Part shown: piece after piece, positions 58,638 through 62,532 of the stretch | Position numbering within the stretch: the stretch's first letter is position 1 | Layout of the letters: every line of letters starts with the position of its first letter | Assembly (NCBI RefSeq): GCF_900100385.1 | Contig: NZ_FNFC01000004.1 | Location: 1 to 64,000, forward strand | Direction: 5' to 3' | Length of the DNA stretch: 64,000 nucleotides | From: Halovenus aranensis | GTDB taxonomy: Archaea > Halobacteriota > Halobacteria > Halobacteriales > Haloarculaceae | Program-made: the position numbers and the translations under genes | The notes under the pieces: model-generated | What the model was told of the DNA's origin: nothing | Database searches by the model: none | Seen by the model: only the letters and a program-made list of their open reading frames with translations

Positions 58638-59576
58638 ATGCAGACCCATATCGTCCCGGTCGGCTTCGACTACGACCGGGTCATCGCGCCGCTGGTGCGC
58701 GAGCAGTTGGATGTCGACCACGTCGTCCTGCTCAAAGGCGACGTCGGGAGTCAGGCCAACGTCGAGTACTCCCGACAGCTCGCCGAGAAGCTCGAACAGG
58801 ACTTCCGGAGCCTGCTCGGCGCGGAGACCGAGCAGTACGTCATCGGCGACGTCTACGACTACGACGGCGCCTTCGAGCAGGCCTACGACCTCATCCTCCA
58901 AGAACTCGACCGCGGCGACAGCGGCGACAGCGAGGTCTGGGTGAACATCTCAGCGATGCCCCGGACCGTCTCGTTTGCGTTTGCGACGGCGGCACACTCT
59001 ATCATGGTCGAGCGCGAGTCCGACCGCGACCGTATTCACACCTACTACACGGTACCCGAGAAGTACCTCGAAACCGAACTCGCCGAGGAGTTGCGTGCCC
59101 AGCGTGACCTGCTCGAAGACCTCAAGAACGGCGAGCAGCCCGACGGGGGAATGGCCGACCGTATCACCGACCGGCTCGACAGCGCACAGGAACTGCTCTC
59201 GGAGTTCGACGAACGCGGGACGACGATTGGAGCCAAGGAAATCGGCGGCAGCCACGTCGTCGAACTGCCGGTTGCGTTGTTCTCGAACGTCAAGCCGTTC
59301 GAAGAGGTGATTCTGTTCACGCTGGGTGAACACGGGGCGTTCGACTCGGTGTCGGAGTTAGCACAGCAACTCGCCCGAGAACTGGGCGAGGAATACACTG
59401 ACTCCTTTCGTTCCAAGGTCATCTACACCGTCGACAGGCTCGGTCCCGGCGGAAAAGGATACATCGAACAGGAGTCCGACGGCAAGTCCTATCATACGAC
59501 GCTCTCACGGATTGGCCGTCTGTGGGTCCGTGCACACTCCGGACGCGACAGAGACGGTCAGGAGCGGTCGCTGTAG
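58638..59576 (+). CDS. DUF6293/HFX_2341-like regulator with CARF-like domain
   Basis: This 312-residue protein has an N-terminal Rossmann-like domain beginning THIVPVGFDYDRVIAPLV with VWVNISAMPRTVSFAFATAA in the position of the CARF ligand loop (N-x-T/S pattern). A linker follows, then a C-terminal winged helix (EVILFTLGEHGAFDSVSELA, YTVDRLGPGGKGYIEQES). Together these match the haloarchaeal HFX_2341 family. CARF domains bind cyclic nucleotides or other nucleotides and often control CRISPR or other defence, but no cas genes are present here. It has its own TATA box and precedes the valS leader. Confidence 0.82.
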   Translation: MQTHIVPVGFDYDRVIAPLVREQLDVDHVVLLKGDVGSQANVEYSRQLAEKLEQDFRSLLGAETEQYVIGDVYDYDGAFEQAYDLILQELDRGDSGDSEVWVNISAMPRTVSFAFATAAHSIMVERESDRDRIHTYYTVPEKYLETELAEELRAQRDLLEDLKNGEQPDGGMADRITDRLDSAQELLSEFDERGTTIGAKEIGGSHVVELPVALFSNVKPFEEVILFTLGEHGAFDSVSELAQQLARELGEEYTDSFRSKVIYTVDRLGPGGKGYIEQESDGKSYHTTLSRIGRLWVRAHSGRDRDGQERSL

Positions 59577-59647
59577 AGTCGACGGGCGGGAGCGAAGCGA
59601 CCAAGCTAACAGCACAGGGACACTGCTGGGGAGCGAAACCGAAGAGG

Positions 59648-59652
59648 TTAAT
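59648..59652 (+). promoter_or_regulatory. Putative TATA-like element of the valS transcript
   Basis: TTAAT is centred 28 bp before the ATG at 59678, the start of the 22-codon leader frame. A-rich CGAAACCGAAGAGG lies directly upstream as a possible BRE. The element is weak; a start site would be near 59678. Confidence 0.4.
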
Positions 59653-59677
59653 CTGTCGGGCGTAACACAGTGGCGTA

Positions 59678-59746
59678 ATGGCGCGTCGAGTGACTGCGAC
59701 GCTGGTTTTCGTCTCTCCCGTAGTAGGGGCGTTTCTGCCCCACTAA
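59678..59746 (+). CDS. Putative 22-residue Val-rich leader peptide of valS
   Basis: This frame begins MARRV and ends with ...FLPH before TAA (59744-59746). It has five Val among 22 residues, encoded by GTG, GTT, GTC and the tandem GTA-GTA at 59720-59725. The tandem codons coincide with the base of a GC-rich hairpin (59722-59744). No family resemblance is claimed. A TATA-like element 28 bp upstream predicts leaderless translation. Valine richness alone could be chance in a hydrophobic peptide. Confidence 0.35.
   Translation: MARRVTATLVFVSPVVGAFLPH
59722..59744 (+). promoter_or_regulatory. Hairpin overlapping the end of the valS leader frame
   Basis: AGT-A-GGGGC (59722-59730), loop GTTTCT, GCCCC-ACT (59737-59744): an 8-bp stem with one bulged A. 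The next bases contain CCCCT (59752-59756), which can pair with AGGGG instead, giving two mutually exclusive folds. A ribosome stalled at the GTA-GTA codons would mask the 5' arm. Confidence 0.45.
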
Positions 59747-59838
59747 ACCACACCCCTCGGCGCTCGTACAGCTATCAACTACCGACGTTCCGTTCACAGG
59801 GACGGCTCCCTCTCGAACAGGAACAGTCACTGTCACAC

Positions 59839-62532
59839 ATGAGCGAGACAGACCACTCATCGAACGAGGAATCGCCCGCAAACAACGACCGAGACGGCCT
59901 TAGCGGTGAATACGACCCCGAGGCGGTCGAGCCAACCTGGCAACAGCGCTGGGTGGACGAGGAGACGTACGCCTACCAAGGCGACCTCGACACACAGTAC
60001 AGCATCGACACCCCGCCGCCGACGGTCTCGGGTGACCTGCACATGGGACACCTCTATGGCCTCACCCTGATGGACTTCGTTGCCCGATTCAAGCGGATGT
60101 ACGGCGACGATGTCTATTTCCCCTTCGGCTACGACGACAACGGCATCGCCTCCGAGCGACTGACAGAGCGCGAATTGGGTATCAATCACGGCGATTTCAC
60201 CCGTCGCGAATTTCAGGAGAAGTGCCGCGATGTCTGTCAGGACTACGAGGCGGAGTTCACCGACGACGTGCAGTCACTGGCTATCTCAATCGATTGGGAG
60301 AACACATACAAGACCATCTCCCCGCAGGTCCAGCGCACCTCACAGCTGTCGTTTCTCGACCTCTACGACCAGGGACGAGAGTACCGACAGCGGGCGCCGA
60401 CCATCTGGTGTCCCGACTGTGAGACCGCTATCTCGCAGGTCGAACAGGAGGACCTGACAAAGCAGACGAAGTTCAACGACATCGACTTCGAGTTGGTCGA
60501 AGCCGGCGACGGCGAGACCACACAGGAGACGTTCACCATCTCGACGACGCGGCCCGAACTGCTGCCGGCCTGTGTCTCGGTGTTCGTCCACCCCGACGAC
60601 GACGCGAACCAGCACCTCGTCGGTGGAACCGCACGCGTGCCGCTGTTCGGTCAGGAAGTCCCGATTCTCGAAGACGACCGCGTCGACCTCGAAACTGGCA
60701 GTGGGCTAGTGATGTGTTGTACGTTCGGCGACCAGACAGACATCGAGTGGTACCAGGCCCACGACCTCGATTTGCGTATCGCCATCGACGAGTCGGGGAC
60801 GATGACCGACCTCGCAGACGAGTACGAGGGACTGAGCACCGCCGACGCCCGAGCGGCAATCATCGAAGACCTCGACGAGGCCGGCTACCTGCTCGAATCC
60901 CGCGACCACGAACACACGGTGCAGGTCCACGAGCGGTGTGACGAGGAAGTCGAGTACCTGGTCACCGAACAGTGGTACGTCGAGATACTCGACAAGAAAG
61001 ACGAGTACCTCGACGCCGGCCGGGAAATCGACTGGCACCCCGAGAAGATGTTCACCCGGTACAAACACTGGATTGAAGGACTCGAATGGGACTGGTGTAT
61101 CTCCCGACAGCGCGACTCGGGTATCCCGTTCCCGGTCTGGTACTGTCAAGAGTGTGACGAGGCTATCACCGCCGACCGCGAGGCCCTTCCAGTCGACCCA
61201 ATCGAAGACGAGCCGCCTGTCGACGCCTGTCCTGACTGTGGCCACGACGAGTTCGCGCCCGACAAGGACGTGTTCGACACCTGGGCGACTTCGTCACTGA
61301 CGCCGCTCGTCAACGCCGGCTGGGACTGGGACGCCGACGTGGGCGAGCTACGGATGGAACAGCCCGAGCTGTACCCGATGAACCTTCGGCCACAGGGCCA
61401 CGATATTATCTCGTTTTGGCTGTTCCACACGGTAGTGAAATGTTACGAACACACCGGCGAGGCCCCCTTCGAAGATGTCATCATCCACGGGATGGTGCTG
61501 GACGAGAACCGCGAGGCGATGTCGAAGTCCAAGGGGAACTTCATTGCACCCAGTGAGGTCATCGACGAATACCCCATCGACGCGACCCGCTACTGGACGG
61601 CAAGCGCCTCAATTGGCGACGACTTCCCGTACCGCGAGAACGCACTGGAGGCCGGCGAGCGCCTCCTCCAGAAGCTCTGGAACGCCTCCCGGTTAGTCGA
61701 CCAGCTCACCGAGGACGTGGACCGCTCGATACTGGACGAGGAAAGACCGGAGTCCGAGCTGGCCGACATCGACCGATGGTTCCTCGCTCGGCTCGACGAG
61801 ACAATCGAATCCTTGACCGAGCGCTTCGATAACTACGAATTTGCAAAGGCACGCGACGACCTCCGGACCTTCTTCTGGTCGACGTTCTGTGACGACTACC
61901 TCGAAATCGCCAAACAGCGTCTCTCAGGAGGTGGCGACGAATCCACGGAGTACACGCTTTTGCGCGCTCACAACACGTTCCTCAAACTGTGGGCGCCGCT
62001 GTTGCCCCACGTCACCGAAGAACTCTACCAGCGCCTCTACGACCCCGAGGAGTCGCTGCACCGCCAGGCTTGGCCCGAGCCGGCCGGCTACGACGCCGAC
62101 CTCGCGGCCGGCGAGACGGCCATGGAGGTTATCGGTGCGCTGCGACGGTACAAGACAGAAGAGGGACTTCCGCTGAACGAGCGCCTCGAAGCCGTTGACA
62201 TATACGGCCACGTCGGCGGGTTTAGCGACGCTATCAGCGACGTGATGCACGTTACGCGAATCGAGACGTTCGACGACGAGCCCGAGGTGACGACCGAAAT
62301 TAGCGATATCGACCTCGATTACTCGCTCGTCGGTCCTGAGTTCGGTTCCGATGTGGGGGCAATCGACGACGCCATCGAGTCTGGCGAGTTCGAGGTGAGC
62401 GGCGACACGCTCTATCTTGCCGACGGCCAGTTCGAACTCGACGACGAGATGTTCGAGATAGAGAAGTCCCGGACGTATTCGGGCGAGGGACAGATGATAG
62501 AGACTGAGCGGGCGGTCGTCATCGTGCGATAG
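59839..62532 (+). CDS. valS: Valyl-tRNA synthetase
   Basis: This 897-residue class I synthetase of the archaeal ValRS type has HIGH-equivalent HMGH at 68-71 in SGDLHMGHLYGL and KMSKS-equivalent MSKSKGN. A CP1 editing domain carries WCPDCETAISQVE and TISTTRPELLPACV, and a zinc-type CQECDEAI/CPDCGHDE pair lies in the middle. RQRDSGIPFPVWYC and GHDIISFWLFHTVV further support Val specificity over Ile/Leu. It attaches Val to tRNA-Val. The ATG at 59839 (MSETDHSSNE) starts an acidic tail before homology. An unusual 160-nt leader with its own small ORF precedes it. Confidence 0.96.
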   Translation: MSETDHSSNEESPANNDRDGLSGEYDPEAVEPTWQQRWVDEETYAYQGDLDTQYSIDTPPPTVSGDLHMGHLYGLTLMDFVARFKRMYGDDVYFPFGYDDNGIASERLTERELGINHGDFTRREFQEKCRDVCQDYEAEFTDDVQSLAISIDWENTYKTISPQVQRTSQLSFLDLYDQGREYRQRAPTIWCPDCETAISQVEQEDLTKQTKFNDIDFELVEAGDGETTQETFTISTTRPELLPACVSVFVHPDDDANQHLVGGTARVPLFGQEVPILEDDRVDLETGSGLVMCCTFGDQTDIEWYQAHDLDLRIAIDESGTMTDLADEYEGLSTADARAAIIEDLDEAGYLLESRDHEHTVQVHERCDEEVEYLVTEQWYVEILDKKDEYLDAGREIDWHPEKMFTRYKHWIEGLEWDWCISRQRDSGIPFPVWYCQECDEAITADREALPVDPIEDEPPVDACPDCGHDEFAPDKDVFDTWATSSLTPLVNAGWDWDADVGELRMEQPELYPMNLRPQGHDIISFWLFHTVVKCYEHTGEAPFEDVIIHGMVLDENREAMSKSKGNFIAPSEVIDEYPIDATRYWTASASIGDDFPYRENALEAGERLLQKLWNASRLVDQLTEDVDRSILDEERPESELADIDRWFLARLDETIESLTERFDNYEFAKARDDLRTFFWSTFCDDYLEIAKQRLSGGGDESTEYTLLRAHNTFLKLWAPLLPHVTEELYQRLYDPEESLHRQAWPEPAGYDADLAAGETAMEVIGALRRYKTEEGLPLNERLEAVDIYGHVGGFSDAISDVMHVTRIETFDDEPEVTTEISDIDLDYSLVGPEFGSDVGAIDDAIESGEFEVSGDTLYLADGQFELDDEMFEIEKSRTYSGEGQMIETERAVVIVR

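Follow-up and report, generated by a model that had tools for sequence, protein, structure and literature searches.

Leader-peptide attenuation is a textbook bacterial mechanism, and a short reading frame rich in Val codons ahead of the valyl-tRNA synthetase gene (valS) of the archaeon Halovenus aranensis raises the question of whether an archaeon also uses it. The frame lies in the window, by which we mean the whole 64,000-nucleotide stretch of DNA that was analysed, and an earlier note, made from the sequence alone, had interpreted it as an attenuator. We infer, with a probability of roughly 80%, that this leader controls valS by ribosome-mediated, codon-sensing attenuation. The observed basis of this interpretation consists of conserved leader frames, rare cognate codons and covarying helices; translation of the leader has not been shown, and the leaderless start, the stalling, the refolding and the direction of the response are inferred.

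The elements that the earlier note had described were present in the window (Table 1). The leader starts with an ATG at 59678 and contains 22 sense codons, five of which encode Val (GTG GTT GTC GTA GTA); its stop codon TAA occupies positions 59744-59746, and the ATG of valS (59839) follows 92 nt past it. The TATA-like element is centred about 28 nt upstream of the leader ATG, and folding predicted a hairpin, here called P2, that starts inside the tandem GTA-GTA and overlaps both GTA codons and the leader stop. The CCCCT motif, for which a role as an alternative partner of the hairpin had been suggested, does occur downstream, at 59753-59757, one base away from where the note had placed it. The fold of this leader was unremarkable when considered as a single sequence (z = -1.3), so the case rests on comparison and one sequence would not convince. 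The second helix, P1, was weak in the window (summed pair probability of 0.18 in free RNA), because a local hairpin at 59683-59702 competes with it. This local hairpin, GCGUCG..CGACGC, lies inside the leader and also satisfies mechanical terminator-like criteria. No Rfam family, including the T-box, matched positions 59000-60200 of the window up to an E-value of 1, and none matched ten related loci up to an E-value of 0.1.

Table 1. Positions of the valS leader features in the window, with the evidence for each.
Feature	Position	Strand	Basis or remark
TATA-like element GTTAATC; upstream of it AAACCGAAG (59636-59644), a sequence that relatives share	59647-59653	+	Loose consensus match
Leader ORF MARRVTATLVFVSPVVGAFLPH*	59678-59746	+	Frame kept in 84/98 type-1 genomes; start at or near the mRNA 5' end predicted
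Tandem rare Val codons GTA GTA, proposed stall site	59720-59725	+	Codon-usage contrast between leaders and valS
Hairpin P2: 59721-59724 and 59726-59730 (GGGGC) with 59737-59741 (GCCCC) and 59742-59745	59721-59745	+	Folding prediction and covariation
P1 5' arm GCGUCGAG, leader codons 2-5	59683-59690	+	Matched versus species-swapped pairing
P1 3' arm CUCGGCGC, 3' of P2	59756-59763	+	Matched versus species-swapped pairing
valS, valyl-tRNA synthetase, the controlled gene (PF00133)	59839-62532	+	90% identical to Halovenus salina valS

The valS gene of the window's kind is called type 1 here, and its upstream regions were collected from 98 genomes, which sample the haloarchaea unevenly. A mechanical pattern detected the leader in 82 of the 98, and two more that the pattern had missed (L100, which has GUAGGGGC..GUCCCC, and L086) brought the count to 84. 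Of the 14 genomes without a leader, 13 belong to a single family (f4), in which valS stands directly behind its own TTTAA-type box. In the remaining one (L121, genome G135), which is Natrialbaceae-like, the leader ORF and the hairpin have been lost and the downstream block has been kept; this is perhaps a decaying system. The names Natrialbaceae-like and Haloferacaceae-like are inferred family assignments. Type-1 leaders end in ..VFVSPVVGA.., ..VFVGA.*, ..VVGA.* and similar sequences, GTA directly precedes GGGGC, and in Natrialbaceae-like genomes the stop codon TAG is inside the hairpin loop. Leader starts were chosen by means of a loose TATA-like match, which in most relatives begins 28-36 nt upstream of the leader ATG. 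The valS match of one genome (G001, L010) carries one in-frame TAG. No such leader was seen by eye in the single nanohaloarchaeal valS upstream region inspected (L031), which does not amount to a survey of that group.

Some genomes have a second, distant valyl-tRNA synthetase (ValRS), type 2, which is about 39% identical to type 1. In 34 of 35 type-2 upstream regions, a mini-ORF 8-12 codons long precedes the gene (for example, MGLMSSVVR*, MSVMSSVVRR* or MRVVAVVRE*), with a TATA-like box that begins 28-31 nt before its ATG. These leaders contain GTA GTA (GCA GTA in L019); the codon that comes next is usually one for Arg, and the stop codon lies 9-18 nt past the first GTA. They lack the GGGGC hairpin, yet GTA GTA is kept, and they have little in common with type-1 leaders beyond in-frame GTA Val codons before valS. 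In genome G337, a type-2 leader (MEHPAAAVVRP*) stands ahead of a type-1 synthetase, which indicates that the type of leader is not tied to the type of enzyme. Three incomplete genomes of one genus (G010, G011 and G016; loci L006/L020, L011/L021 and L012/L019) have both ValRS types; wherever the leader could be read, it was of the kind proper to its type, and this dual set may be real or may come from mixed assemblies.

Because only start codons that share the frame of the GTA codon were sought, a spacing in multiples of three was built into the data, and the fair tests of coding are whether the frame is open and how many ATGs each frame contains. An ATG-initiated ORF that is open through GTA was found in the GTA frame in 116 of the 116 motif-bearing valS leaders, and in the other two frames in 6 and 2. 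Similarly, the 95 nt upstream of GTA contained 128 ATGs in frame versus 12 and 4 in the other frames. The distance from ATG to GTA in type-1 leaders took 17 different values between 27 and 87 nt, all of them in frame, and we conclude that the leader drifts in length while its frame is kept. Val made up 16.7% of the in-frame codons of type-1 leaders (4-5% in other frames) and 33.2% of those of type-2 leaders (10-16% in other frames). The GTA codon is rare in the synthetase genes themselves, where it accounted for 10 of 746 Val codons in type 1 (1.3%) and 8 of 1127 in type 2 (0.7%), versus 138 of 324 (43%) and 69 of 100, respectively, in the leaders. The search pattern itself requires one GTA of a type-1 leader and, in most cases, two of a type-2 leader. 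With one pattern-defining GTA removed per leader, 56 of 242 Val codons were still GTA in type 1, far above 1.3%; the type-2 enrichment is the pattern itself. Synonymous changes between Val codons were seen as well, for example, GTC and GTA at one codon in G000 (the window genome) and G004. The comparison across haloarchaea for which the earlier note had called thus found the frame and the Val codons conserved in several families, with synonymous changes and varying ORF lengths, and the lack of conservation that would have refuted its proposal did not occur.

Short C-terminal motifs near the stop codon are also conserved (VFVGA, VVR, IVGA and RFTG), as might be expected if the leaders encoded arrest peptides that, as erm leaders do, sense a signal other than tRNA charging, such as a drug or a metabolite. 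We give this explanation a very slight chance, since at most about seven residues of a type-2 leader have been made when its second GTA is decoded, the shared residues are chiefly those at gene-matched codons, and no feature is more conserved than a rare synonymous codon, for which an arrest peptide has no need.

Covariation was evaluated by comparing the pairing of each helix's own partners with that of partners swapped between species, a procedure that reduces the effect of relatedness and does not remove it. P2 is universal in type-1 leaders, with z = -6.4 overall and -4.4 within family groups, and compensatory versions (GGGCC/GGCCC) are rare (L004, L112 and L122). The type-1 P1 joins nucleotides 1-18 of the leader to RNA 5-33 nt past P2 (z = -6.6/-6.7; within families, -4.7/-4.6). 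In type 2, P1 joins leader nucleotides 4-24 to the region 5-45 nt upstream of the valS AUG; its own partners had a mean energy of -19.5 kcal/mol versus -16.2 kcal/mol for swapped partners (z = -7.2, 0 of 5000 permutations). The type-2 signal was absent at 0 to +30 (z = +1.5), and there was little of it at -70 to -36 (z = -1.9). The control codons lie at these pairing segments: the GUA codons of type-1 leaders overlap P2, and those of type-2 leaders are reached by the P1 arm. The earlier note's interpretation as an attenuator was upheld as regards the conserved frame and the gene-matched codons described below, but not as regards the alternative partner it had suggested, because the pairing of the hairpin's GGGG with CCCCT showed no covariation (-6 to +12 around GTA against +5 to +23 from the hairpin end: z = -0.9; within families, -1.0). 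A pairing between the leader sequence GUUUUCGU and the valS start codon, taken from the consensus fold, was also rejected, with no matched-versus-swapped signal (z = -0.6). Past P2, there was no sign of a U-tract terminator such as bacteria use.

A small survey of synthetase genes revealed leaders at thrS, proS and one of the two trpS genes. A strict pattern detected the thrS leader (consensus MVGVRFTGAFARF*) in 25 of 71 upstream regions and overlooked a longer form in G037; it has one invariant ACA, with a hairpin (ACAGGGGCUUUCGCCC) behind it. The thrS P1 extends from the leader AUG to just past the leader stop (z = -3.4 to -4.0), with compensatory versions GGCAGAA/UUCUGCC and GACGGUAG/CUACUGUC, and the layout of P1 and P2 is like that of valS. 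The trpS leaders come from only four genomes (MSTPIGRGWRWRLF.., MQSAPTRWRWRT.., MRSAPARCWRWH.. and MTSALERRWRLH.., the last with a GTG start); three of the four contain Trp-Arg-Trp, and the complementary segments GUCC-CUCCC and GGGAG-GGAC change jointly among the four genomes. For proS, eight leaders were found (..ARG(W/R)VP.. or similar, with one invariant CCG), and this is the weakest case among the genes with leaders. At ilvB, which does not encode a synthetase, 25 leaders end in (I/V/L)VGA and share the GUAGGGGC hairpin with valS, mostly with ATT(ATT) ahead of GTA; P1 gave no clear signal in these leaders. The window genome has leaders at all five genes, i.e., valS, ilvB, thrS, trpS and proS. 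No leaders were seen at ileS, leuS, glyS, serS, hisS, aspS, tyrS or the other trpS, which were inspected by eye in a few genomes. The leader codons match the gene that follows, Thr at thrS, Trp at trpS, Pro at proS and Ile-Val at ilvB, and from this match we infer that codons are what is sensed.

These leaders also bear on the possibility that ValRS or uncharged tRNA binds the RNA directly, as E. coli ThrRS does on its own mRNA or as in a T-box, and that the ORF is incidental. Feedback on a synthetase gene would follow the same logic, and type 1 shows strong conservation of the P1/P2 structure and of the sequence blocks that follow P2. However, direct binding leaves the conserved reading frame unaccounted for, as well as the retention of GTA GTA in type-2 leaders that have no GGGGC hairpin, the presence of the same hairpin ahead of a non-synthetase gene and the switch of the hairpin-adjacent codon to ACA at thrS. 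Furthermore, no Val anticodon was noticed by eye in the P2 loops that were seen, and the Rfam searches gave no T-box match. Consequently, we allow this possibility only a slight chance.

The leaders share one layout, in which a mini-ORF predicted to open the transcript has a cognate codon at or beside a structure and is followed by an amino-acid gene. Under codon-sensing attenuation, transcription would start at or next to the leader AUG, which would let ribosomes enter the mRNA straight at its 5' end. Initiation at the leader ATG is plausible, given that 72% of the protein-coding transcripts of Haloferax volcanii are leaderless (PMC4983044). When Val-tRNA is ample, ribosomes would cross the GUA codons, end translation at the stop and dissociate; the leader RNA would then fold into P2 and P1, and the expression of valS would be low. 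When Val-tRNA is scarce, a ribosome would wait at the rare GUA codons, cover segments of the RNA and block their pairing, and the expression of valS would rise. Because the type-2 P1 has its 3' arm 5-45 nt upstream of the valS AUG, type-2 leaders most likely act at the level of translation. In a folding model, a ribosome footprint on the GUA codons raised the unpaired fraction of the region from -35 to +12 around the type-2 valS start from 0.460 to 0.533, versus 0.477 with control masks. A ribosome at the leader stop gave 0.526 in this model, almost the same value, and fed and starved cells would therefore differ only in how long the ribosome dwells. At the type-1 start region, a stalled ribosome had only a small effect in the model (0.359 to 0.393 in Natrialbaceae-like genomes and 0.504 to 0.520 in the others), so type 1 may act at the level of transcription, or through P1 in a way that a simple footprint misses. 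Whether control is transcriptional or translational is undecided for the type-1 valS, thrS and ilvB leaders. Two further points run counter to the mechanism, beside the modest modelled effects, the missing U-tract terminator and the lack of a clear P1 at ilvB: a ribosome at GUA in type 1 leaves most of the P1 5' arm bare unless a second ribosome queues behind it, and the thrS and proS leaders hold just one invariant cognate codon.

In Natrialbaceae-like valS upstream regions (L078, L088, L101 and others), the hairpin gives way to a near-invariant block, UUUCGACGGAUGUAUUGU..CGACC, which includes an AUG that opens the frame MYCRRPAFTEQRPV..; in some genomes, this frame ends in an AUGA overlap with valS beside a conserved CGCCC..GGGCGGUGAG hairpin. 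In this block, the sequence is conserved and the frame is not, and we rejected the second small ORF as a conserved coding relay for that reason. A second AUG between leader and valS in many of these genomes, sometimes with the AUGA overlap beside a hairpin over a GGUGAG motif, is what would be expected of a constitutive upstream ORF that allows reinitiation downstream or merely keeps basal expression low, with no amino acid being sensed. The second frame varies, however (MY* in L105; 10-13 aa in L103, L112 and L122), and is absent in the window, and an arrangement of this kind would not explain the gene-matched codons at valS, thrS, trpS, proS and ilvB. We regard the chance of it as small.

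The valS leader resembles leader-peptide attenuators in its anatomy, with a short upstream ORF kept as a frame, codons for the amino acid of the gene, and control codons at segments whose pairing a stalled ribosome would change. For a pair of mutually exclusive structures, the observations are limited to a type-2 P1 that abuts the valS start and a modest modelled opening of the start region. Membership in that class is unproven, because stalling and expression are inferred. The bacterial leader-peptide attenuators (E. coli ilvGMEDA, ilvB, leu, thr, trp and pheST; C. glutamicum ilvBNC) likewise have a short ORF with cognate codons located at a switchable hairpin, control synthetase or biosynthesis genes and have a rare codon at the control site; the E. 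coli leu attenuator uses the rare CUA. An ilvB leader with both Ile and Val codons also has its counterpart there. The haloarchaeal leaders differ in being archaeal, in their predicted leaderless ORF, in the lack of any U-tract intrinsic terminator that we could find, in a long-range P1 formed from the leader's first codons, and in having, at thrS and proS, just one cognate codon. Translational attenuators such as that of ermC are similar in that the start region of the downstream gene would be released by a ribosome stalled on a short leader ORF, and the paired segment of the type-2 valS leader lies just upstream of the valS AUG; in contrast, ermC senses a drug together with the nascent peptide, whereas the haloarchaeal leaders would sense by means of cognate codons, and sequestration of a Shine-Dalgarno sequence has not been shown in type 2. 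T-box riboswitches also control synthetase and amino-acid genes according to tRNA charging, but they bind the tRNA directly without translation, and neither they nor other Rfam families match here. E. coli thrS, likewise a synthetase gene, is autoregulated by feedback that acts via its 5' region; there, ThrRS binds a tRNA-like fold, whereas the haloarchaeal leaders have conserved cognate-codon frames, also at the non-synthetase ilvB.

We found no report of an archaeal leader-peptide attenuator in the open-access full-text literature searched; subscription papers were mostly not covered, so absence is not proven. A tool paper remarks in passing that upstream ORFs attenuate in archaea too, and a search of its text showed no haloarchaeal case (PMC10219788). 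According to a study of haloarchaeal start sites, structured leaders do not typically exert translational control in these organisms (PMC4983044). We consider it probable that haloarchaea have a general codon-sensing attenuation on leaderless mini-ORFs, covering at least the two types of valS, ilvB, thrS, one trpS and proS, that it is partly translational and separate in origin from the bacterial systems, and that it is the first ribosome-mediated attenuation known in Archaea. If this is true, Archaea gauge their amino-acid supply by the speed of decoding on transcripts that mostly have no 5' UTR, and the sensing element is a mini-ORF with rare codons that can be as short as eight codons. The proposal is directly testable in those haloarchaea that have working genetics, and it provides a handle on the coupling of transcription and translation in archaea.

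A pattern search of 39 genomes found leader-type copies of the GUAGGGGC hairpin only before valS and ilvB. The sequence GTAGGGGC..GCCCC also occurs, without leader-like features, upstream of an apparent gene for ribosomal protein S13 (L344-L346, L348, L359, L360 and L362), and these copies were seen in several genomes of families f2 and f4.
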